31,392 nt of DNA, taken from positions 1 through 31,392 of IMG/VR virus record IMGVR_UViG_3300036719_001498; one strand, 5' to 3'. Below, piece after piece: positions 12-10,554 of this stretch. Origin of the DNA: a virus. The notes under the pieces are model-generated. The model worked only from the letters and a program-made list of their open reading frames with translations, was not told where the DNA came from and ran no database searches. Each line of letters opens with the position of its first letter. The stretch's first letter is position 1. Position numbers and translations under genes: made by a program.

Positions 12-69
12 ATTGCCCACATTGCCCACAGGCATGCGGGCGTGGGCATTTGTGGGCAATGTGGGCAAT
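12..69. repeat. Perfect 19-bp inverted repeat made of paired iterons
   Basis: Positions 12-30 (two tandem ATTGCCCAC units plus A) are the exact reverse complement of 51-69. The 20-nt spacer 31-50 carries one more imperfect unit, GTGGGCATT, at 42-50. The arms can form a 19-bp cruciform or RNA hairpin. No T-tract follows on either strand, so a terminator is unlikely. The repeat is more probably a protein-binding site or origin structure. Confidence 0.85.
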
Positions 70-125
70 GTGGTCATGGAAAAAAAATTGATCCAGCGTC
101 TACAAATGCGCGTCACATATTCACA

Positions 126-145
126 TACTGTACGCCTATACAGTA
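126..145. promoter_or_regulatory. LexA-like SOS box
   Basis: The 20-bp site fits TACTG-N10-CAGTA, with CTGT at 128-131 and ACAG at 140-143. This is the symmetric layout of the LexA box known from gamma- and betaproteobacteria (CTGT-N8-ACAG). A consensus -10 hexamer TATAAT lies just downstream at 148-153, so a bound repressor would overlap the RNA polymerase footprint. The gene it controls is not clear: the first credible plus-strand start is at 398, and a gene left of the window cannot be excluded. Confidence 0.6.
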
Positions 146-147
146 CA

Positions 148-153
148 TATAAT
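148..153 (+). promoter_or_regulatory. Possible -10 element beside the LexA-like box
   Basis: TATAAT matches the sigma70 consensus. No good -35 hexamer lies 16-18 bp upstream, where the LexA-like box sits instead. If used, the transcript would run rightward through the second iteron cluster. Activity is uncertain and could depend on an activator or LexA release. Confidence 0.3.
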
Positions 154-177
154 TTTTATACTGTTAAATAAAAAGCA

Positions 178-283
178 TTACCCACATTACCCACAACGCA
201 TGTTTACGCCTATTTTTCTAGTCACTTGCGCGTGGGCAATTTGTCCGCGTTTCATTACCCACACCATTACCCACATTGCCCAC
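178..283. repeat. Second iteron cluster
   Basis: ATTACCCAC occurs in tandem at 178-186 and 187-195, then at 254-262 and 266-274, followed directly by ATTGCCCAC at 275-283. One inverted copy, GTGGGCAAT, lies at 232-240. Tandem copies are spaced 9 bp start to start (12 bp for one pair), close to one helical turn, which suits cooperative binding of one protein on one DNA face. The unit differs from the left cluster mainly by A or G at position 4. Confidence 0.85.
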
Positions 284-599: not shown

Positions 600-1007
600 A
601 TGACAACTGCAACCACACTTGACCTTGCCGCCGACATCATCGACGTCCGCGACATCATCGCTCGCGTTGAAGACTTGGAAAGCGTGATCGACACCGCACC
701 CGAAGACAACATATGGACGCTGGAGGAGCAAGCTGAAGCCAACCGCGAACGGATCGCGCTAGAGGCCATCCTCGACGAACTCAAGGGCTATGGTGGCGAT
801 GAACAATGGCGCGGCGATTGGTACCCCGTGACGTTGATCGACGACGCTTATTTCGTGGACTACGTGCAAGATATGCTTGCCGATTGCGGCGTGGTGCCGC
901 GCGACCTACCGCACTATATCGAAATAGACTGGCGCGCCACGGCGCGCAACGTCCAGACGGATTATTCATCCGTTGAAATCGACGGCCGCACGTACTGGTA
1001 CCGCTAA
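600..1007 (+). CDS. Highly acidic early phage protein (possible DNA mimic)
   Basis: A 135-residue protein with GGAG at 587-590 before the ATG. By count it has 31 Asp/Glu and 11 Lys/Arg, so it is strongly negative. The first ~65 residues look helical. The C-terminal half resembles a small domain often seen in phage and plasmid hypothetical proteins, with the pattern YPVTLI..YF.DY...L..D.G followed by EIDW.ATA...Q.DYSSVE..G..Y..R. Position at the head of the early operon plus the charge suggest an antirestriction or DNA-mimic role, but that is inference; it is not recognisably ArdA or Ocr. Confidence 0.75.
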   Translation: MTTATTLDLAADIIDVRDIIARVEDLESVIDTAPEDNIWTLEEQAEANRERIALEAILDELKGYGGDEQWRGDWYPVTLIDDAYFVDYVQDMLADCGVVPRDLPHYIEIDWRATARNVQTDYSSVEIDGRTYWYR

Positions 1008-1008
1008 C

Positions 1009-1236
1009 ATGGACAGCCAACGATACGTAGTCCTAACCCTGTGCGGCCACCATTACGAAAACGTATGGGAGCTCGACGGCGAGCCGGAAGTTTTCGAAAG
1101 CGCCGGCGAGGCTGAGGCCGCATTGGCCGAACACTTGCGCGAGTGCCAGTGGGCCGTAGACGCCGGGCACCTTGACACCATGCCAACGCGCGATCAGTTC
1201 CACGTCGCGCCGTACGTGGGCGAGGTGGCCGCATGA
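1009..1236 (+). CDS. Small conserved-type phage protein, unknown function
   Basis: A 75-residue protein. The ATG at 1009 lies 1 bp after the previous stop and fits tight operon packing better than the in-frame ATG at 973, which would overlap the upstream gene. It is acidic and contains the pattern FESAGEAEAALAEHL near residues 28-42, followed by a region rich in Asp and Pro. Small phage proteins with an EAEAAL..HL helix are common but uncharacterised. Its stop overlaps the next ATG by 4 bp, implying translational coupling. Confidence 0.65.
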   Translation: MDSQRYVVLTLCGHHYENVWELDGEPEVFESAGEAEAALAEHLRECQWAVDAGHLDTMPTRDQFHVAPYVGEVAA

Positions 1237-1433
1237 GTAGCTACCGCGACGCTATCGAGCGTTACATGGATGAAGGTCTACGCCGCCACGCCGCTGAAAT
1301 TGAAGCGGCGTTGGATGACATCGGCCAACAACCAAAGCGCCGGCGGGGGTGGATAGACCCCCGCGACCCCGCCTACCCTTTTGACGATGACGACACGACA
1401 ACTAACCAACCAACTGGAGACAATAGACTATGA
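1233..1433 (+). CDS. Small hypothetical protein with acidic tail
   Basis: A 66-residue protein starting in an ATGA overlap with the preceding gene and ending in an ATGA overlap with the next. The N-terminal half is predicted helical (DAIERYMDEGLRRHAAEIEAAL). It is followed by a basic patch (KRRR near residue 36) and a D4-T3 low-complexity stretch. No family is recognised. The double overlap is the main support that it is translated. Confidence 0.55.
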   Translation: MSSYRDAIERYMDEGLRRHAAEIEAALDDIGQQPKRRRGWIDPRDPAYPFDDDDTTTNQPTGDNRL

Positions 1434-1786
1434 AAACTGCAATCATCACGGCCGTGCTGGCCGCTACACTCACCACGGCCGCACATGCGGACACGTTCGC
1501 CACGGCGGCCGTTAAAGGTGAGCCCAAAGGCAAGACGATCCTCACGACCGACGCGTGCACGCTCGCGCTCGACCCTGTGGTGCTAGGCACCACAGCCGGC
1601 AACCTTACCGGCATGCGCCGCGCGTTCTACTACACAGACGCCGGCGCGACGGAGGAGGGCTGCTGGAGGCACGACGCGGGCACGGTACTGCTAGCGTGGC
1701 CAGCGTCTAAGCTGCTGCGCCGTTGGCCCATCGCTAACTTCAAGCTCGCTGAGCGCAAGGACAACGCGTGGGAGGTGCTGCGATGA
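1430..1786 (+). CDS. Exported protein with Sec signal peptide, unknown function
   Basis: A 118-residue protein with a clear N-terminal Sec signal peptide: Lys at residue 2, a hydrophobic core of about 12 residues, and an AHA|D-type cleavage site near residue 21. The mature part has two Cys (C43 and C78), which could form a disulfide in the periplasm. The ATG overlaps the previous stop by 4 bp and has its own ACTGGAG Shine-Dalgarno, the same motif used at 398 and 600. An early phage gene sending a protein to the periplasm or envelope suggests exclusion or cell-surface change; no family is recognised. Confidence 0.65.
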   Translation: MKTAIITAVLAATLTTAAHADTFATAAVKGEPKGKTILTTDACTLALDPVVLGTTAGNLTGMRRAFYYTDAGATEEGCWRHDAGTVLLAWPASKLLRRWPIANFKLAERKDNAWEVLR

Positions 1787-2004
1787 GCGGCAAGCGTTGG
1801 GTCATTCAATATACCATCGGCGGCCCTGAGTACGAGGGCCGCTACCTAACACTCGACCGTGACGCTGAGGGCGCCTATACCGGCACGTCACGGCCGGTTG
1901 AGCGTGTTGAGGACGCGCTACGCATGACGCAGAGTCAAGCTGACGCGATCGTAGCGCTGGCCTTGGGCTGCAAGGCGATCGAGCTACCCGAGGGCGTAGC
2001 GTGA
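1783..2004 (+). CDS. Small hypothetical protein
   Basis: A 73-residue protein. The ATG at 1783 is chosen because GGAGG at 1771-1775 is well spaced and the start overlaps the upstream stop by 4 bp (ATGA). An in-frame start at 1768 lacks this support. The N-terminus looks beta-rich (WVIQYTIGG...YEGRYLTLD), followed by a helix with MTQSQADAIVALAL. This suggests a small alpha/beta fold. No family is recognised. Confidence 0.6.
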   Translation: MSGKRWVIQYTIGGPEYEGRYLTLDRDAEGAYTGTSRPVERVEDALRMTQSQADAIVALALGCKAIELPEGVA

Positions 2005-2132
2005 GCCGTTGGTTCGCGTGGCTGCGCACCGTGTTGCGTCGCATGGACGCCGCACGGCGTGACGAGTGGCGCCGCGTGCCGCCTCCAAACTGGGCGTGCA
2101 GTCGGCGGCGTTGGGGTGGTGACTACTGGTGA
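2001..2132 (+). CDS. Very small basic Trp/Arg-rich protein
   Basis: A 43-residue frame starting with GTG at 2001, inside a GTGA overlap with the preceding stop, and ending in a GTGA overlap with the next start. GAGGG at 1990-1994 can serve as the Shine-Dalgarno. The product is strongly basic with many Arg and five Trp, with little hydrophobic length, so nucleic-acid or membrane-surface binding is possible. Support comes from context (it exactly fills the gap between two genes), not from similarity. Confidence 0.5.
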   Translation: MSRWFAWLRTVLRRMDAARRDEWRRVPPPNWACSRRRWGGDYW

Positions 2133-2605
2133 GGACCATAACTATGGACATACGCATGACGTTCGATGAGTGGGACGCGTTCCAACGTGACATGGGCCGG
2201 CCGGCTGATCCATTTGAGAGTAAGCCGCCTATAGACCCCGAGACTATGTACCGAGCGCCCGAGAGCCGCTTGGAGCGCACCTGTAGGCTGACCAAAGAGG
2301 AGATCGACGCCGTGATGGCTGAGTACAACGCGTGGCCCTATGGGAGCGACAGTACGCACGCCGAGGCTGACAGTACGCCCGACGCGATCAACCCCGACCA
2401 TTACAAAGTCGGCGGTATTGAAACGATTGACTACATGAGGGCTAAGAGTACGCCCGAGGAGTTCGAGGGCTACTTGCGCCTATCGGCGCTCAAGTACCTT
2501 TCACGCGTCGGCCATAAGCACGGCGACCACGACGCCGCACGCGCTGAGGAGTATAGAAAAGCTCTGTGGTTCATTGATCGCCTAGTGCGAGAGGTGGAGC
2601 GATGA
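2129..2605 (+). CDS. DUF3310 domain protein
   Basis: A 158-residue protein. Residues ~85-155 match the DUF3310 pattern: NPDHYKVGGIETIDYMRAK, EEFEGYLRLSALKYLSRVGHK, then a KALWFIDRL helix. DUF3310 is found in many phages, including T7 gp1.7, a nucleotide kinase involved in dTMP/dGMP handling; whether this domain alone is catalytic here is unknown. The ~80-residue N-terminal part is acidic and not recognised. The start is GTG at 2129 (GTGA overlap) or ATG at 2144. A role in nucleotide metabolism is inferred. Confidence 0.8.
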   Translation: MRTITMDIRMTFDEWDAFQRDMGRPADPFESKPPIDPETMYRAPESRLERTCRLTKEEIDAVMAEYNAWPYGSDSTHAEADSTPDAINPDHYKVGGIETIDYMRAKSTPEEFEGYLRLSALKYLSRVGHKHGDHDAARAEEYRKALWFIDRLVREVER

Positions 2606-2796
2606 GCGACAACCTAACGCGCGATGACTACGGCCGCGTGGTGAAGCTTTACACGGAAGCAGTATACAAGCTGCTGCATTACGAGGCGGCGCTACACACC
2701 ATTGCTAACATGAGCCGCGATCAGTGCGAGGACGCGCACGCGATCGCCAGGCGCGCGCTGCAACGGGTAGACCGTGGCGCGGACAACACTCACTGA
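2602..2796 (+). CDS. Small helical protein, unknown function
   Basis: A 64-residue protein beginning in an ATGA overlap with the DUF3310 gene, with GAGG just upstream. It looks almost wholly alpha-helical (YGRVVKLYTEAVYKLLHYEAAL, then a second helix DAHAIARRALQRV). No family is recognised. Overlap coupling suggests co-expression with the DUF3310 protein. Confidence 0.55.
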   Translation: MSDNLTRDDYGRVVKLYTEAVYKLLHYEAALHTIANMSRDQCEDAHAIARRALQRVDRGADNTH

Positions 2797-2977
2797 CTGG
2801 TGGGTCCGGCGCATGTGGCGCTGGATCGACGTGGCGCGCAAGGACGTGCGCCAAGGCAAGGGGCGGCGCTACAAGGCGCCGACCGCCTTGCAGCATGTGA
2901 CCGCTCGATACAATCAACTAAAGGCCAATAAGCGTGACGTACTTACTCTTGACTATCGGCGCCGCCATCCTCGTTGA
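2774..2977 (+). CDS. Small basic hypothetical protein
   Basis: A frame of 67 residues from GTG 2774 (overlapping the upstream gene by 23 bp), or 54 residues from ATG 2813, which has GGTGGG about 8 nt upstream. It is rich in Arg, Lys and Trp (WVRRMWRW near the start, then KGRRYK). No family is recognised. It lies at the end of the early operon, and coding status is less sure than for its neighbours. Confidence 0.4.
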   Translation: MARTTLTDWWVRRMWRWIDVARKDVRQGKGRRYKAPTALQHVTARYNQLKANKRDVLTLDYRRRHPR

Positions 2978-2996
2978 CTGGCTACTTGACGACTGA
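2934..2996 (+). CDS. Possible 20-residue single-pass membrane peptide
   Basis: GTG at 2934 opens a 20-codon frame whose product is a short hydrophobic helix (LLLTIGAAILVDWLL) ending in Asp-Asp. It overlaps the end of the preceding frame and the 3' end of the convergent PrimPol gene. Peptides this small do occur in phages, but the only evidence is composition and position, so it could be chance. Confidence 0.25.
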   Translation: MTYLLLTIGAAILVDWLLDD

Positions 2997-5276
2997 CAAT
3001 GCAGGCGCCTTGTCCTCGGCCATGTGCCGGAGCTCCGACTTCGTGAGGCTCGCAAACTGCGGATGGCAGAACACATGCTTACGTGTCGGCCACTCGCGTG
3101 AGTGCAAGCGTCCACAATCGACCCACTCAGCCTCGCGTATCGCGTGCATGAGCGCCGGCGGTACGACCTTAACGCCCGTGGGCGCAAGGCCTTGCAGCCG
3201 ATCGCAGATGGCATAGAACGGTGAGGCGATCACGCCCTTGGCAAAGTCACCCTGCCGCGTGCGGATCATTTCGACTAGGAACGACTCGGCCGTACTCATG
3301 GCCGACTCGATCATAATCATTTTAGCCTCAGTCATCGGCGGCGCAGCGCCGGGGTTGAACGCCGACACGTCACGGGCATCAAGCCACGCGGCGACCGACT
3401 CAAACCCGCCGGACTTGTACCACGCCCAGATGTGCTCGGCGTCCTCGGGGCGCATGCGCTCGGCCTCAGACCACACGACGAACCAGCGGCGATCGTCTCG
3501 CGGTAGGCTGATGGCCGCGCGCTCGTTTGAGAACGACAGTACGAACACACGATTAAGCGCGTCGTACGGGTGCATGCCCTTACGGTTGACCGACAGTAGT
3601 TCAGGCGGCGCGGCGATCACGGGCTTCAAACTATTCTCAAGCGCGCGACGGTCTTTGGCCTCGGCCTGTCTGAGCTCGTTGATCACGATCACTTCAGACT
3701 CCAGCGCGTAGCCCCACTGCGAATTGAGTTCCTCGTTCTTGACGATCGCCACGTTAACGTGCGTATTGCCACCGATCGACCACAGGAACGGCGCCCAAAG
3801 CGTGTCCTTGCCGCTACCAGGACGACCGGCGTGCAGGACGGCGTGGTTGATCTTCTTCTCGGGGTGCTGGCGCTTGTAGGCCATCACGTTAAGCACATGC
3901 TCGCGCTCGATAGGGTCTGGGATCATGCGCTCGGCGTGCTGTAGCCAGATGGATACGTCGCCCTCGGCGGCGGTCGGGCGCGCGTCGCGCCAGCGGTTGC
4001 CGTAGACAAGGCCGTTGCGTGAGACAAGGATCGACTCGCCGGCGGCGAACGTGACGCCGACCAACGAGTGAGCGCCCATCGCCTGACGGTTCTCGTCAAA
4101 GCAGATGGAGGCTTCAATGTTGCGGTTTGAGCGGATGCTGCGGCATGGGATGTGACGGAACAACGCGTTAAACGTCTGCCGGCTGATCTCGCGCCGATCA
4201 ATCATGTCGAAGTAACTGTCATCGTCTTGGATGTAAGCAAAGCGTTCGTACCATTGCGATCGCTCGACGCGCCCGAGCTCGCGGCGCTCGACCTCCTCGA
4301 TCACCTTGGCGGCTTCGTCTGGGAACTCAGTTGTGGGCGTAATTTTACTCAACGCGGCCTCCATCTTTTTTGCGAGCAGGTCATCGCGCAGACCATAGCC
4401 CGTCTTGGGGCCGCCCTCGGCCTCGACCCATCGCAAAAATTTCTCGCTATTCCAGTCACCACAGTGACCGTGGAAGCAGGTGTAGCTACGGGATACGGGA
4501 TTGTAACGCCCGCCGGGGTCGCCCGTCGTGTGCGCCGCATGGTTAGGACACACTACGCCGTACCAGCCCTCGCCGTTGGCCTTATCGAGCAGCAGCCCGC
4601 GCTCGCGGACCCACTCTAGCACCGTGTCAAGGCCATCGTCCTCAAGGTATACGCCGCGTATATACGCCGTATCAACAGGACCGGGCGTGACGCCCAATGC
4701 TTGACAAATATGGGCCAGTGTGTACTCGCGCTCGGGGTGGAACTCGGTCAGGATGGAGGCGAAGTTGTGGCGCCCTTCCTTTAGGTTGATGCTGCCCTCG
4801 ATGCGGAAGTTGCGCACCGGGTTGATCGCGCCGGGGTCGGTGTAACCGGCTTCAGCGATCGCTTTGATCGCCGCGCTGAACTCGCCCTTGGTCGGCTGGT
4901 CATCGAGGCCGAACGTGTAGCCCCACTGATAGTTGCCGGGGCTCGTCTCCATCTTCCACGTCGGCTCCAACGGCGGCACCTTGGACTTGGTGCCGACATC
5001 ATCGAGCACCATGAACGCAACGCGCTCGCAGTTGGCCGCAGAGGCCGAGAGGCCATCGGCCATGCGATCGACGATGAAGCAACCGGTGTTGGCGTACCAC
5101 GCCCCTTGCGGGCGGCGCTGGTAACGGTCAAACAAGGCCGGCGGCCAGGTGTACTTCAGCGTGCCGTCGTTGTGTGCAAGCTGCTCGCCGTTACGCATGA
5201 GCGGCTTCTGACGGACGAACAGGATAACTTCCCCTTCTGGGGCGATGCTGTTAAGATAATCGGCGAATCTCATCAT
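2982..5276 (-). CDS. Primase-polymerase/helicase fusion (NrS-1-like PrimPol with DUF5906-type helicase)
   Basis: A 764-residue replication protein. The N-terminal third looks like a RepB/AEP-type primase, with a metal-site DD at ~92-93 (MVLDDVGTK) and a conserved RNFRIEGSIN strand at 155-164. A Cys/His cluster follows (C243, H246, H249; C267, H269, H271, C272) that could bind zinc. The C-terminal part is an SF3/D5-like helicase, with Walker A GRPGSGKD at 484-491, Walker B VIVINEL at 529-535, a sensor-like FSNE at ~582-585 and DDRRWF at 594-599. This order matches phage NrS-1-type proteins that start DNA chains and unwind. GGAG lies 7 nt before the ATG-ATG start. Confidence 0.85.
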   Translation of the reverse strand: MMRFADYLNSIAPEGEVILFVRQKPLMRNGEQLAHNDGTLKYTWPPALFDRYQRRPQGAWYANTGCFIVDRMADGLSASAANCERVAFMVLDDVGTKSKVPPLEPTWKMETSPGNYQWGYTFGLDDQPTKGEFSAAIKAIAEAGYTDPGAINPVRNFRIEGSINLKEGRHNFASILTEFHPEREYTLAHICQALGVTPGPVDTAYIRGVYLEDDGLDTVLEWVRERGLLLDKANGEGWYGVVCPNHAAHTTGDPGGRYNPVSRSYTCFHGHCGDWNSEKFLRWVEAEGGPKTGYGLRDDLLAKKMEAALSKITPTTEFPDEAAKVIEEVERRELGRVERSQWYERFAYIQDDDSYFDMIDRREISRQTFNALFRHIPCRSIRSNRNIEASICFDENRQAMGAHSLVGVTFAAGESILVSRNGLVYGNRWRDARPTAAEGDVSIWLQHAERMIPDPIEREHVLNVMAYKRQHPEKKINHAVLHAGRPGSGKDTLWAPFLWSIGGNTHVNVAIVKNEELNSQWGYALESEVIVINELRQAEAKDRRALENSLKPVIAAPPELLSVNRKGMHPYDALNRVFVLSFSNERAAISLPRDDRRWFVVWSEAERMRPEDAEHIWAWYKSGGFESVAAWLDARDVSAFNPGAAPPMTEAKMIMIESAMSTAESFLVEMIRTRQGDFAKGVIASPFYAICDRLQGLAPTGVKVVPPALMHAIREAEWVDCGRLHSREWPTRKHVFCHPQFASLTKSELRHMAEDKAPALSVVK

Positions 5277-5335: not shown

Positions 5336-5851
5336 TCAAACATGCCGCCAGCACATTCGTTTACGAATTGCAGCTACATGATCCTTTGAAACTTGGTACA
5401 TTTTTGCAAGCTCCGTACTAGTGCGGTTGCTTGATCGAATATGCGCCACCGCGTCTTCATCCAATTTAGCGCGCGGATGACTAGCACCAAACCGTTGCCG
5501 ACCATGACGTTTAGTATCTGCCACATTGTCGGCAGGAGTTCCGTAACGCAAATTGCTATAATGATTGTTTGCTTTGTCGCCATCGCTATGTAAAACGTGT
5601 AAGCCTATAGGGCACTCACCAATAAATGCCCGCGCGACTAAACGGTGTACAGCAATTTGCGGCCGGTTAACGCCATCCGTCAAAGTTACACAAAAATATC
5701 CGTTATTTTTTCTGACCGGGGCTAATGCGCGACCTTTACGGACAGCGGTTTTTCCGCTTTTGGCGCCAACAGTCATATCTTTAGACCGAATATCACCAAA
5801 TTCGCTGATTTTGTATCGCGTTTCCCAACCAGGTATATCGACCCATTTCAT
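5336..5851 (-). CDS. HNH homing-type endonuclease (NUMOD4-HNH)
   Basis: A 171-residue protein. NUMOD4-like N-terminus (WVDIPGWETRYKISEFGDIRS, residues 3-23), then an HNH core (VHRLVARAFIG ... LHSDGDKANNHYSNL, ~73-106) and a C-terminal helix-turn-helix-like segment (ELAKMYQVSKDHVAAIRK). This family nicks or cuts DNA and spreads its own gene. It starts in an ATGA overlap with the polymerase stop, so it is a free-standing gene and not inside an intron. The DNA is AT-richer than the neighbours, suggesting recent arrival. Confidence 0.9.
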   Translation of the reverse strand: MKWVDIPGWETRYKISEFGDIRSKDMTVGAKSGKTAVRKGRALAPVRKNNGYFCVTLTDGVNRPQIAVHRLVARAFIGECPIGLHVLHSDGDKANNHYSNLRYGTPADNVADTKRHGRQRFGASHPRAKLDEDAVAHIRSSNRTSTELAKMYQVSKDHVAAIRKRMCWRHV

Positions 5852-7806
5852 TTTCCGTAACGCTCCATAATTTTACATTCAGCTCGAAGCGGAAACCCCT
5901 GCGCCCAATCCGGCGAAGTTTGCATAATCGCCATTAAACGCTCTTTTGTACGTTCCGCTTCACTTATGGAACATTCTATCACTATCTCGTCATGTACTGT
6001 AAGGATAATAACATGCCCTTCAGCGTCTAACTCACGCAGACTGTGCCGCAGCAAATCATTGGCGGTGGCCTGTGTGATGTTCTCGCAAGCCAAGCCTTTC
6101 CACAGTCGCGCACGCGGCCATTCAGTCGCATCTTGCGCGGGCTTCCAAGCAGCTTTGAGATAACTCACACCGTCCGACTCCAGACGGGCGAACGGATAAC
6201 ATAGCACGCGGCCCGAGGGCAGGGCGTACCATAAATGCTGACCGTCGTACATGTACGCCACGCGGCCAGCTTTGAACTCAGTGTTGACATTTCGCATGGC
6301 GCGGGTGTAGGCGTCTTCTAATCTTTGCCAGTAGCGCACCGCCCACGGGTTCGCACGACGCCAGCGGTCAACAATACGCTGCGCCTCGGCCTCGCTCATG
6401 TTGACGCCATACGCGCGGCCCATCGCGCTGAACGCACCGACGCCGCCGGCAAAGCCTAGTGAAAGGATAGCGACCTTGCCGATCTGGCGCTGCTCGTCGT
6501 TGACCTCGGTAGGCCCGACGCCGTAGATGCCAGCGGCCTCACGCTTGTAGATGTCACCGCCGGTGCGGAAGATTTCAAGGACAGGCTCGGCGAGCGGGTC
6601 GGCTGAGAGCCACGCGGTCGCGCGGGCTTCGATCGCCGCCCAATCGGCCACGACGAACGCGTTGCCTTTAGCCGGGATCAGCGCCGGGCGTAGCATGGAC
6701 TTGAGCACGTCCGTGACGCGGATTCCGTATCGCGGAACGATCGCATGCCCGCGCACAAGCGCCTGGCGTACGGCCTCGGGCTCCTTGTGGCACTTGCGGG
6801 TGAAGTTGTGGACCTGCGCGCCGTAGCTCGACGCGCGGCCTGTGGCGCTGCCGCCTGCAAAGATAAACGCACCGCGCACGCGGGCGTCCTCGACATCGGC
6901 GAGTTGCTTCAAGCGGTTGAACTTAGCGACGGACGAGGCCCACAGGTCATCCGCACACTGCACGACATCGGCCACGTCGGGCGGCACTTCGTCGGCGTTG
7001 TCCATAGCGAGCAGGTTGGCCCGCACGGTCTTGTCAATGCTGTACTTCTTCTCACCGTCCTTGTAGACGGTCATCAGCTTCTTAGCCTCGGGGCCGACGC
7101 GCTCCAGCACCCACTCGCGCATTTTGGGCGAGCGAACGGTCTGTATCACACCTAGTGTGACCTCTGAGACGATCTTCTCAATCTCTTGCAGTTCGTCCTC
7201 GGCGTAGCGCACGGCGGCCTCGCAAAGCGGCACGTCTACCCTGACACCCGCGTCGTTGATCCGCTCGTTGACGTGGTAATCGGCAAGCTCGGTGTCTGAC
7301 AGGTCGCGCATCGCCTTGCTGATCTCGCGCATGGCGCGCACGTCCTGCTCGCAGTAGGCAATCATCTCGGCCATCAGCGCAGGGTCGTTGTTGAACGTCC
7401 CATCCGCGCGAGGGATGGAGAGTTGACGGATCAACTGCGAGCCGCGATGGTCCTTCTTCATCTTAGACGAGAGCGCACGGCCAATATCCTCAAGGCTACC
7501 GGGTAGACAGTTGGCCCGTGCCTGTGCGGCCGTGCAGTAAAACTGTGTCAAGTCGAAGTTGATCTGACACACGTACCAAAAGATGAGCCGCTCAAACGCA
7601 GCGTTGTGTGCGCGTATCTGACCCTTGAAGTTGGCCACGCGCTCGGGGAACGGATACTTGGGCAACCACGTTGCCACCTCGCCGTCATCGAACGCGTAGG
7701 ACATGCAAAGCACCTCGGTGCTCAAGTCTTGCGCGTAGTTGTACGCACCGGCTGACGGCAGGTCGCACCGGCTACGGGTTTCAAAGTCTATCCAAAGTAT
7801 TGCCAT
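5848..7806 (-). CDS. Family A DNA polymerase with 3'-5' exonuclease
   Basis: A 652-residue replicative polymerase, starting at ATG 7806 right before the exonuclease motif (MAILWIDFET; D7, E9). An upstream in-frame ATG at 7860 would add 18 residues inside the preceding gene. Exo II is HNAAFE (~67-72) and Exo III is YCEQDVRAM (~151-159). Polymerase motif A is VADWAAIEAR (D388), motif B is RQIGKVAILSLGF (~440-452), and motif C is HDE near the C-terminus. In motif B, the residue equal to E. coli Phe762/T7 Tyr526 is Leu. It resembles T7-like and environmental phage PolA and probably extends primers made by the PrimPol. Confidence 0.93.
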   Translation of the reverse strand: MAILWIDFETRSRCDLPSAGAYNYAQDLSTEVLCMSYAFDDGEVATWLPKYPFPERVANFKGQIRAHNAAFERLIFWYVCQINFDLTQFYCTAAQARANCLPGSLEDIGRALSSKMKKDHRGSQLIRQLSIPRADGTFNNDPALMAEMIAYCEQDVRAMREISKAMRDLSDTELADYHVNERINDAGVRVDVPLCEAAVRYAEDELQEIEKIVSEVTLGVIQTVRSPKMREWVLERVGPEAKKLMTVYKDGEKKYSIDKTVRANLLAMDNADEVPPDVADVVQCADDLWASSVAKFNRLKQLADVEDARVRGAFIFAGGSATGRASSYGAQVHNFTRKCHKEPEAVRQALVRGHAIVPRYGIRVTDVLKSMLRPALIPAKGNAFVVADWAAIEARATAWLSADPLAEPVLEIFRTGGDIYKREAAGIYGVGPTEVNDEQRQIGKVAILSLGFAGGVGAFSAMGRAYGVNMSEAEAQRIVDRWRRANPWAVRYWQRLEDAYTRAMRNVNTEFKAGRVAYMYDGQHLWYALPSGRVLCYPFARLESDGVSYLKAAWKPAQDATEWPRARLWKGLACENITQATANDLLRHSLRELDAEGHVIILTVHDEIVIECSISEAERTKERLMAIMQTSPDWAQGFPLRAECKIMERYGK

Positions 7807-8366
7807 TGCTCTGCCATCGCTTCCGCTATTCCAGTGTACGTAACGCTGCGCAGTTTCCATCTATCAGGAGACGGCGGCAGTTTGTGAACCCGCGCTTCTC
7901 GACCCTCTACAATGTTTGTCGGCTTTAATTTCGGTAGATTCTTTAGCCAGAGACACGTTGCCTTTGTTTCTCCGTGTCCAAACTGCCAAGGCTGAATGAC
8001 CTGATCCGGCTTTCGGATGCGCGAAGAAATAATGCTAACCGGATTTTCCAACGCAATACGCGGGATAGGTGCATCCAAAAGAAAACGTACAAACTCTAAG
8101 GCTTCCGCTTGCTCGGCTTGCTTGTTTTTAAACCATCGAGCTCCGCTTACGGCAAGGTGAGTGCACGGTGGATGTGCAATCATTAAGTCCCACGGCAAGA
8201 TTGCCCATGGCTTGCCTCTGCCTAAGACATTTCGCACGTCGTCTTGATAGTGGTACTCGCTACCGTCATCAGCGGGCAACAAGTCGCATGACCACGCGTC
8301 ATGCCCGCGCTTGCGAAAAGCATCGCGTACCACACCAGAAAATTCGCAGGCTACTAATACACGCAT
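7788..8366 (-). CDS. Short cytosine-5 DNA methyltransferase-like protein
   Basis: A 192-residue protein with a Rossmann-like start (MRVLVACEFSG, then SCDLLP), a PPC motif at 66-68 (IAHPPCTHLA) and ENP at 107-109. These match the SAM-site, PC and ENV positions of C5-cytosine methyltransferases. It is much shorter than active restriction-type enzymes and lacks an obvious target-recognition domain, so specificity is unclear. Similar short proteins are common in phages. It may methylate phage DNA for protection or may have a divergent function. The end overlaps the polymerase start by 19 bp. No clear Shine-Dalgarno is seen before the ATG. Confidence 0.65.
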   Translation of the reverse strand: MRVLVACEFSGVVRDAFRKRGHDAWSCDLLPADDGSEYHYQDDVRNVLGRGKPWAILPWDLMIAHPPCTHLAVSGARWFKNKQAEQAEALEFVRFLLDAPIPRIALENPVSIISSRIRKPDQVIQPWQFGHGETKATCLWLKNLPKLKPTNIVEGREARVHKLPPSPDRWKLRSVTYTGIAEAMAEQWQYFG

Positions 8367-9054: not shown

Positions 9055-10179
9055 TTACACTAGTTTAGAAAGGGCCGCAGTTAACTGCTGCCCGATTTGC
9101 AACACGGCGGGCCGGGGATCGCTCTCCGGCGCCAACGTGGTGCCCGATGAGACGGAGATAATCTGATCGTCCGGCATGGGGAGCTTCAGCTTCTTCAGCT
9201 TCTTCTCCGCCTGTGCTGGCGAGATCAAATACGTCTCCATCACGTCAGTCATTGACAGGTGCTGCAAGAGCGCCTGTTTCGCTGATTCTTCGTCCTTCCA
9301 TTGACGCGTCGCGCGTTTCTGGACGAGCTTATAGCCCGGTACAGGATTGCCCGACTCTAACACTTGCAGCGCAAGCGCACGCAAGTCGCTGATCCAATCT
9401 TCAAGCACGTCCGCACGCTGGAGCATGTCACCAAGTTGCGTGACATCTAGCTCCTTAATCTGCGTCTGCGTCGCGCGATCGACCGCACCCGTCATCAGCG
9501 GGCAAATAGGCTTGGCTGCACACCAGCGGCAGTGATCGCCGATCTTGAGCGGCGCGTCGGGCTTGGCCGACTGTTTAACGGCATACGTTAACTCGCGCTC
9601 AAACTGTCGCACGCGATCAAACGATGTCACCCAACGCTTGATCTTCGGCGGCTGGACGATGATGCACTCGATTTCTTTGGCGTCCTTGAAGACCCATTCC
9701 AGCGCCGGCGTGCGGATCGCCGCAGCCGTATAGAATAGTAACTGAGAGTTTTCTTCAGCTTCGACGGCCACGCCGTCACCAAATTTCCAATCAAGTATGA
9801 TAGCGCGATCGCCAATGCGACCGATAAGATCACAAGAACCAAAAACACCCGGAATAAGATCACCGAAACTGACGGTTTGTTCGACTGCGAATTCAAGCTG
9901 TGCGTCTGGGTCGATTTCATTGATGGCGTCCAGTGCAGGGCGAACCTTCTCGTCGATCAGCTCGCCGGTGAGTTTGATGCCGTTGTACTCCATGTCGAGC
10001 ACATGGCGGAGTTCCTTGTCGCTGCCAAGCATCTCGGCCATGACGTTATGCAGCAGCGTGCCTTCGTCGGCGTACTTGCTGCTTGGCTTAGGCGGGACTT
10101 TTTGGCAGAGCGCGACACTGCCGGGGCAGTTGATCACGCGTTTGGCGGTGGACCCGCCAACGATATTGCTATGACTCAT
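9055..10179 (-). CDS. DUF2800 / Cas4-like PD-(D/E)XK exonuclease
   Basis: A 374-residue nuclease. It has an EGTLLH motif (~40-45), a catalytic pair GSCDLIGRIGDRAIILDWKFG (D...D-x-K), QLLFYTAA (the Q-x3-Y helix), and a likely Fe-S cluster built from C18 and CRWCAAKPIC (C-x2-C-x5-C). This is the RecB/Cas4-like arrangement found in phage DUF2800 proteins, thought to act as 5' exonucleases in recombination or end processing. AAAGGAG precedes the ATG. It is the first gene of the leftward replication cluster, divergent from the VRR-NUC gene. Confidence 0.85.
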   Translation of the reverse strand: MSHSNIVGGSTAKRVINCPGSVALCQKVPPKPSSKYADEGTLLHNVMAEMLGSDKELRHVLDMEYNGIKLTGELIDEKVRPALDAINEIDPDAQLEFAVEQTVSFGDLIPGVFGSCDLIGRIGDRAIILDWKFGDGVAVEAEENSQLLFYTAAAIRTPALEWVFKDAKEIECIIVQPPKIKRWVTSFDRVRQFERELTYAVKQSAKPDAPLKIGDHCRWCAAKPICPLMTGAVDRATQTQIKELDVTQLGDMLQRADVLEDWISDLRALALQVLESGNPVPGYKLVQKRATRQWKDEESAKQALLQHLSMTDVMETYLISPAQAEKKLKKLKLPMPDDQIISVSSGTTLAPESDPRPAVLQIGQQLTAALSKLV

Positions 10180-10266
10180 CGAGGACTCTCCTTTACTGTG
10201 TTTGCGCTAGCCTAGAGCCGGCTGATTTACTTGTCAAGCATTGTTTTATCGCATAGGATTCTCAAC
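10180..10266. promoter_or_regulatory. Divergent intergenic region with overlapping promoter-like elements
   Basis: This 87-bp gap separates divergent gene sets. On the minus strand, TTGACA (complement of 10232-10237) is a perfect -35, but the best -10 17 bp on is weak (TAGGCT). On the plus strand, TTGTCA at 10231-10236 precedes TAGGAT at 10254-10259 with a 17-bp spacer. The two share the same core and could compete. Both are candidates only. Confidence 0.35.
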
Positions 10267-10554
10267 ATGAGAGAGAAGACGATCGAGGAGTATTTGACCT
10301 GGGCGGTCGAGCGCGCCGGTGGCGTGACGTTTAAGTTCCGCTCGCCCTCGCAGCGCGGCGTTGCTGATCGGATCGTGTGCTTGCCGAACGGCGAGACGTG
10401 GTTCGTGGAACTGAAAGCCGAGCGCGGGCGGCTGTCGCCCTTGCAAAAGGTGTTTGCGTCCGTGATGGCGCAGACGAATCAGAAGTACAAAGTGCTGTAT
10501 CGCATAGAGGAAGTCGATGCTTTCGTTGCGTCCGTATCAAGAGAGCGCGGCTGA
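10267..10554 (+). CDS. VRR-NUC domain nuclease
   Basis: A 95-residue stand-alone VRR-NUC (PD-(D/E)XK) nuclease with GVADRI (D34), WFVELKAERGRLSPLQ (E48-x-K50, Q60). The ATG at 10267 has AGGA upstream. An earlier in-frame start at 10231 falls in the promoter region and is not favoured. Length and layout fit phage VRR-NUC proteins, which are thought to cut branched DNA like Holliday-junction resolvases. It overlaps the following helicase gene by 38 bp and probably works with it. Confidence 0.88.
   Translation: MREKTIEEYLTWAVERAGGVTFKFRSPSQRGVADRIVCLPNGETWFVELKAERGRLSPLQKVFASVMAQTNQKYKVLYRIEEVDAFVASVSRERG

Follow-up and report, generated by a model that had tools for sequence, protein, structure and literature searches.

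The first 283 bases of a viral contig carry a dense cluster of short repeats, which raises the question of whether the phage starts its replication there and, if so, which of its proteins reads the repeats. The contig is an IMG/VR record (IMGVR_UViG_3300036719_001498) of 31,392 bases, and 'the window' refers here to the whole of it.

The window begins within an iteron array

We found that the motif ATTRCCCAC (TGTGGGYAAT in reverse) occurs 11 times at positions 12–283 and in both orientations, ten of the copies being exact and one (42–50) having a single mismatch. Copies on the plus strand start at positions 12, 21, 177, 186, 254, 266 and 275, and those on the minus strand at 42 (the imperfect copy), 52, 61 and 232. 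Four neighbouring pairs (12/21, 52/61, 177/186 and 266/275) are spaced by exactly 9 bp. In 2,000 dinucleotide shuffles of bases 1–300, the mean number of exact iterons was 0.03 and the maximum was 2. Between the facing pairs at 52–69 and 177–194 lies a spacer (70–176, unstranded) that is a candidate DNA-unwinding element; its AT content is 67% across bases 71–176, compared with 43% for the whole window. The original prediction had described 11 copies of the repeat, one of them imperfect, running in both directions with 9-bp tandem steps and flanking about 100 bp of AT-rich DNA, and the recount and shuffles confirm this description. The region is thus a compact noncoding one with multiple short repeats and an adjoining AT-rich element, as iteron origins have.

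The record ends within the array, so the window contains only part of it. In a near-identical contig (L018), the array extends by three more exact copies, and these are followed by terS and terL. Small early genes (600–2977, plus strand), including those at 600–1007 and a DUF3310 gene at 2129–2605, are transcribed away from the array. The product of the gene at 600–1007, the first sizeable one beside the array, is weakly ArdA-like (Pfam E 0.001) and is a possible anti-restriction protein.

A primase-helicase with a predicted C-terminal winged helix

The proposed initiator is a PrimPol-helicase of 764 amino acids (2982–5276, minus strand). Its N-terminal primase domain (approximately residues 1–230; 4587–5276, minus strand) is RepB_primase-like in the family: PF16793 was detected in 42 of the 55 aligned members, with a best E of 6.6e-8, and the window protein does not itself reach the threshold. 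The SF3/AAA+ helicase core, DUF5906 (residues 484–597; 3486–3827, minus strand), is present in all 55. By Pfam and Foldseek, a primase and an SF3 helicase are therefore combined in one polypeptide, as in P4 alpha and SaPI PriRep.

In AlphaFold2 models the protein has a predicted C-terminal winged-helix domain (residues 661–740; 3057–3296, minus strand), which is the proposed iteron binder. Two helices (687–697 and 706–715) precede a beta-hairpin (719–724/733–737) in a winged-helix arrangement, and residues 725, 727 and 730 are located at the tip of this hairpin. The wing tip (residues 725–731; 3084–3104, minus strand) reads HSREWPT in the window and is variable in the family, with the helix at 708–716 being nearly invariant (residues 708–712 almost invariant). 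The isolated C-terminal model gave no significant match against the PDB (best E 0.31). The winged-helix label is thus a tentative one, drawn from the predicted secondary structure together with weak matches to proteins of that fold.

A family A DNA polymerase, PolA (5848–7860, minus strand; PF00476 E 3e-25, phrog_17 E 3e-96), is the expected extender of the primers. Between the PolA and PrimPol genes is a gene (5336–5851, minus strand) for an HNH endonuclease with a NUMOD4 motif, likely a homing endonuclease.

The array keeps its place and much of its layout while its sequence drifts

Relatives were collected from PrimPol scans and comprised two sets of 80 viral loci, with few in common, and one genome-contig locus. 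The order of PrimPol, small early genes, noncoding gap, terS and terL is conserved among them. The array is found upstream of terS in almost every relative, and the 9-bp tandem steps are retained. The original prediction had named relatives that keep the PrimPol but lack iterons as the pattern that would speak against it; we found instead that, where the contig reaches the gap before terS, this gap mostly holds a repeat array in the PrimPol-bearing relatives.

The repeat itself differs by lineage, with TGTGGGCAAT, TGTGGACAAT, TGTTGGCTAT, TGTGGACCAT, TTTGGGTCAT, TGTTAGTCAT and others being observed. A template-free motif caller, applied to the DNA from PrimPol to terS (or to the contig end), still picked out the array in most loci. 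When viral contigs were scanned for the tandem 18-mer, 111 stretches were returned, and 69 of the 78 new loci examined adjoin a terminase and/or PrimPol gene of the same family. The remaining nine, with no relative detected nearby, were read as mostly chance matches or fragments.

Many lineages share a common frame, in which a direct pair is followed by ∼100 bp of AT-rich DNA and then by a facing inverted pair. Most relatives have such a spacer of about 100 bp, enclosed by facing pairs, and beyond the facing pair further direct and inverted pairs are found at similar distances across clades. The geometry is largely kept while the bases drift, as would be expected for protein-bound sites.

Other repeats occupy the array position in a few relatives (L068, L078, L085 and L086). 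A second repeat class, GTTAGTGAG / CTCACTAAC, is present upstream of terS in L199, L203, L226, L230 and L154, either beside the iterons or replacing them. In L102, L113 and L134, repeats of the CAATTTGACC / GGTCAAATTG type stand upstream of terS in place of the usual iteron; the wings of these three relatives read ASHDYPSKKH or ASHDFPSKKH and have no R727. A different phage record (L232), whose TerS is 40% alike, has a similar array, of TGTGGGCAA repeats in 10-bp steps, at 9866–10300. No PrimPol relative, DUF5906 or D5_N helicase was detected in this record, which may be a fragment.

Iteron bases covary with three residues of the predicted wing

To compare repeats with proteins, iterons were registered to a 10-base frame in 82 loci that had been collected solely for the similarity of their PrimPol, and the 44 lineages with PrimPol sequences differing by more than 6% were kept. 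Arginine was found at residue 727 in all 34 lineages with G2 and in only one of the ten without it (Fisher, 1.4e-8). Aspartate at residue 730 accompanied A6 in 16 of 16 lineages and was seen in 2 of the 28 that lack this base (Fisher, 3.7e-10). Residue 725 was lysine or histidine in 24 of the 28 lineages with G4, compared with 1 of 16 without (Fisher, 2.3e-7). The exceptions to this code are L058, which has A725 with G4, L116 and L100, which have D730 without A6, and L109/L120 at base 2.

Co-change was then scored on a tree built from PrimPol residues 1–640, from which the C-terminus was excluded. Changes at residue 727 and base 2 fell on the same branch in seven of seven cases (P 1.5e-9), those at residue 730 and base 6 in 10 of 11 (P 3.4e-11) and those at residue 725 and base 4 in 10 of 12 (P 1.2e-9). 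These P values are approximate, all branches being treated as equal, and despite this the contrast of 725, 727 and 730 with every other column is large. Unguided scans, each of ∼1,250 residue tests, placed R727 (for G2), K725 (for G4) and D730 (for A6) at the top, the best P among PolA, TerS and TerL residues in the same scans being 1.1e-3. By adjusted mutual information, residues 725 and 730 ranked first and second of 472 variable columns (0.57 and 0.44), and the best values elsewhere were 0.39 in PolA, 0.30 in TerS and 0.31 in TerL. Two other approaches were set aside. A partial Mantel correlation of whole-protein distances could not tell the candidates apart, being too weak for so star-like a tree, and was replaced by per-column tests; a first ranking by mutual information, in which rare singletons raised the scores, gave way to adjusted mutual information, deduplicated lineages and tree-based co-change.

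Primases retrieved by the iteron pattern alone carried R727 in 29 of 29 cases. The relatives L150 and L159 are 95% identical over residues 1–640 and 79% identical over the C-terminus, and the differences between their iterons match those predicted from their wings. Because bases 2, 4 and 6 covary with the wing tip, the PrimPol-helicase is the likely reader of the iterons, and the link that the original prediction had drawn between the two is supported at the level of single residues and bases. The relatives thereby provide a natural recognition code, with seven independent switches at one base, each accompanied by a switch at one residue, and two further pairs that are similar. Initiator–origin specificity in primase-helicases thus becomes open to direct test by a few single substitutions.

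A probable origin and its proposed binder, the PrimPol-helicase

From the sequences and models, we consider it very probable that the array is the replication origin of the phage, and that its iterons are bound as duplex DNA by the C-terminal winged helix of the PrimPol-helicase. Of the bases of TGTGGGCAAT, the conserved T3, G5, A9 and T10 would be read by the near-invariant recognition helix and the variable ones by the wing tip, R727 going with G2, residue 725 (K or H) with G4 and D730 with A6; the combination of a constant helix and a variable tip fits such a division. Protein assembled at the two facing pairs would melt the AT-rich DNA between them, and the SF3 helicase would load there and open it. 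Primers from the N-terminal primase would then be extended by the phage PolA, so that replication would start at the array. The anatomy of the array, its conserved place and the covariation all favour the iteron origin originally predicted, whereas the GC-skew check gave no support, the skew having no turning point there. The exceptions to the code, the few relatives with other repeats in this place and the similar array of L232 also count against it. The proposal provides a widespread family of uncultured podophages with a candidate origin at a defined site and with a specific protein as its probable initiator.

The position just upstream of terS, seen in almost every relative, could also be that of a packaging site (pac or cos) with repeats bound by TerS, and some pac and cosB sites are known to have repeats close to terS. 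However, neither TerS nor TerL has columns that track the iteron bases (their lowest P values being 1.1e-3 and 7.5e-3, compared with 3.4e-11 for D730 of the PrimPol) and their adjusted mutual information reaches only 0.30–0.31, against 0.57 in the PrimPol; a packaging site is therefore highly improbable. It is very unlikely, too, that the array is a regulatory operator only, at which the PrimPol-helicase or another early protein controls the flanking promoters while replication starts elsewhere. Its location between divergent transcription units and the LexA-like box within it would suit such a role, and initiators often autoregulate. However, the apparent reader is a helicase-primase, an AT-rich spacer flanked by facing iteron pairs is the anatomy of an origin, and a scan for promoters of the sigma-70 type, the only type covered, found none across the array.

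Two further readings concern how the repeats are recognized. Some relatives carry TTGTCCACA, a DnaA box of high-GC bacteria, and TTATCCACA-like sites, as though host DnaA bound the array. We regard this as extremely improbable, since the TTRCCCACA of the window and the variants ATAGCCAAC and ATGACCCAA deviate from DnaA boxes, and a conserved host protein would leave unexplained a drift that follows the PrimPol wing. The other reading is that of the original prediction, in which the primase part recognizes its template in the manner of NrS-1. NrS-1 polymerase recognizes an 8-nt template sequence present in two copies per genome (PMC7102993), and TTTGGTTA or GTGG has been given as the sequence recognized on the template (PMC8718748). 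The iterons would then be single-strand start sites for the primase/helix-bundle part; the reverse iteron GTGGGYAAT does include GTGG, an efficient NrSPol start site (PMC8718748), and the variants TTTGGGTCAT and TGTTGGCTAT resemble TTTGGTTA. This is scarcely credible as the main function, as only the C-terminal wing shows the covariation, with no N-terminal residue coming near; an extra priming role for the iterons after melting is possible. The prediction of NrS-1-type recognition thus gives way to one of duplex origin binding, as by P4 alpha or SaPI Rep, to which the location of the covarying residues in the predicted winged helix points.

A small protein with a DnaA domain IV helix-turn-helix was found in only four phage records among the 49 records searched (L085, 7083–7379, minus strand, and the records of L068, L078 and L086). 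All four have atypical repeats in their arrays (GTTTACATAAAC, AATTGTCAC and ATTGTCATG), and this protein is perhaps a different initiator in those phages.

Comparison with known systems

P4 alpha has a primase and an SF3 helicase, binds its origin repeats through a C-terminal winged helix, and then both unwinds and primes (PMC4234260). The phage protein likewise unites a primase, an SF3 helicase and, by prediction, a C-terminal winged helix. The type I repeats of P4, which read TGTGAACAGT / GGTGAACAGT, run in both directions and are 9 bp apart in crr. TGTGAACAGT shares 8 of 10 bases with the TGTGGACAAT of the phage family, and the crr repeats TGTGAACAG, in 9-bp steps, are also close to TGTGGACAAT. 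The two systems differ in that the P4 primase is Toprim-type (PMC4234260), whereas that of the phage is RepB-primase-like; this phage has PolA, whereas P4, a satellite, has no polymerase of its own; and the origin proposed here adjoins terS rather than the initiator gene. Comparison with P4 alpha by hhalign gave no significant similarity (E 0.09 over 41 columns), and so did not place the two proteins in one sequence family. The kinship of the C-terminal domain to that of P4 is a candidate likeness of predicted fold.

In self-loading primase-helicases and helicases of the SaPI Rep type, the C-terminal domain recognizes short iterons downstream of the protein's own gene (PMC7581432). A C-terminal domain that reads short iterons, as proposed here, is a feature of SaPI5-type PriRep, SaPI Rep and SCCmec Cch2, and the Foldseek matches of the full model include the SaPI5 and PriRep1 structures (7ola and 7pds). 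Those systems, however, belong to satellite or cassette elements of staphylococci and have different iterons, and the array here lies beside terS, at a distance of at least ∼2.7 kb from the initiator gene. In its way of working the phage seems to resemble P4 alpha and SaPI Rep, with a primase module different from that of P4, its own PolA and a remote origin.

The likeness to NrS-1 polymerase is limited to the helicase region, where the PDB profile match has an E of 4e-11. The top Foldseek match of the full model is the NrS-1 C-terminal region (E 1.8e-19). The N-terminal PrimPol and helix bundle of NrS-1 had no match in the sequence-profile search, family members matching RepB_primase instead. 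NrS-1 also has no iteron array, whereas one is present here. The replication proteins of pRN1 (ORF904) and phage BIP-1 have a similar build of AEP primase, SF3 helicase and C-terminal winged helix (PMC4234260). Stem-loop recognition has been suggested for proteins of this type and no iteron origin reported (PMC4234260), in contrast to the clear iteron array found here. The present proposal thus runs counter to the suggestion that AEP–SF3–winged-helix replication proteins act at stem-loops and not at iterons (PMC4234260).

A LexA-like palindrome in the spacer

The spacer contains a LexA/SOS-box-like palindrome, CTGTACGCCTATACAG (128–143, unstranded), which is the sole CTGT-N8-ACAG in the window. 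A CTGT-N8-ACAG is found near mid-spacer in at least five clades (L069, L106, L153, L159 and the window clade), with an offset from the first iteron of 130–141 bp across them; in L159 it reads CTGTATATATATACAG. A more speculative proposal, which we consider doubtful, is that the origin is both reprogrammable, three wing residues setting the iteron by a simple residue-to-base code, and gated by a host LexA or LexA-like repressor that would sit on the palindrome and block unwinding until SOS. If true, replication of the phage would be coupled to DNA damage in its host. CTGT-N8-ACAG palindromes are also located near the centre of the spacer in L013, L017, L025 and L031.
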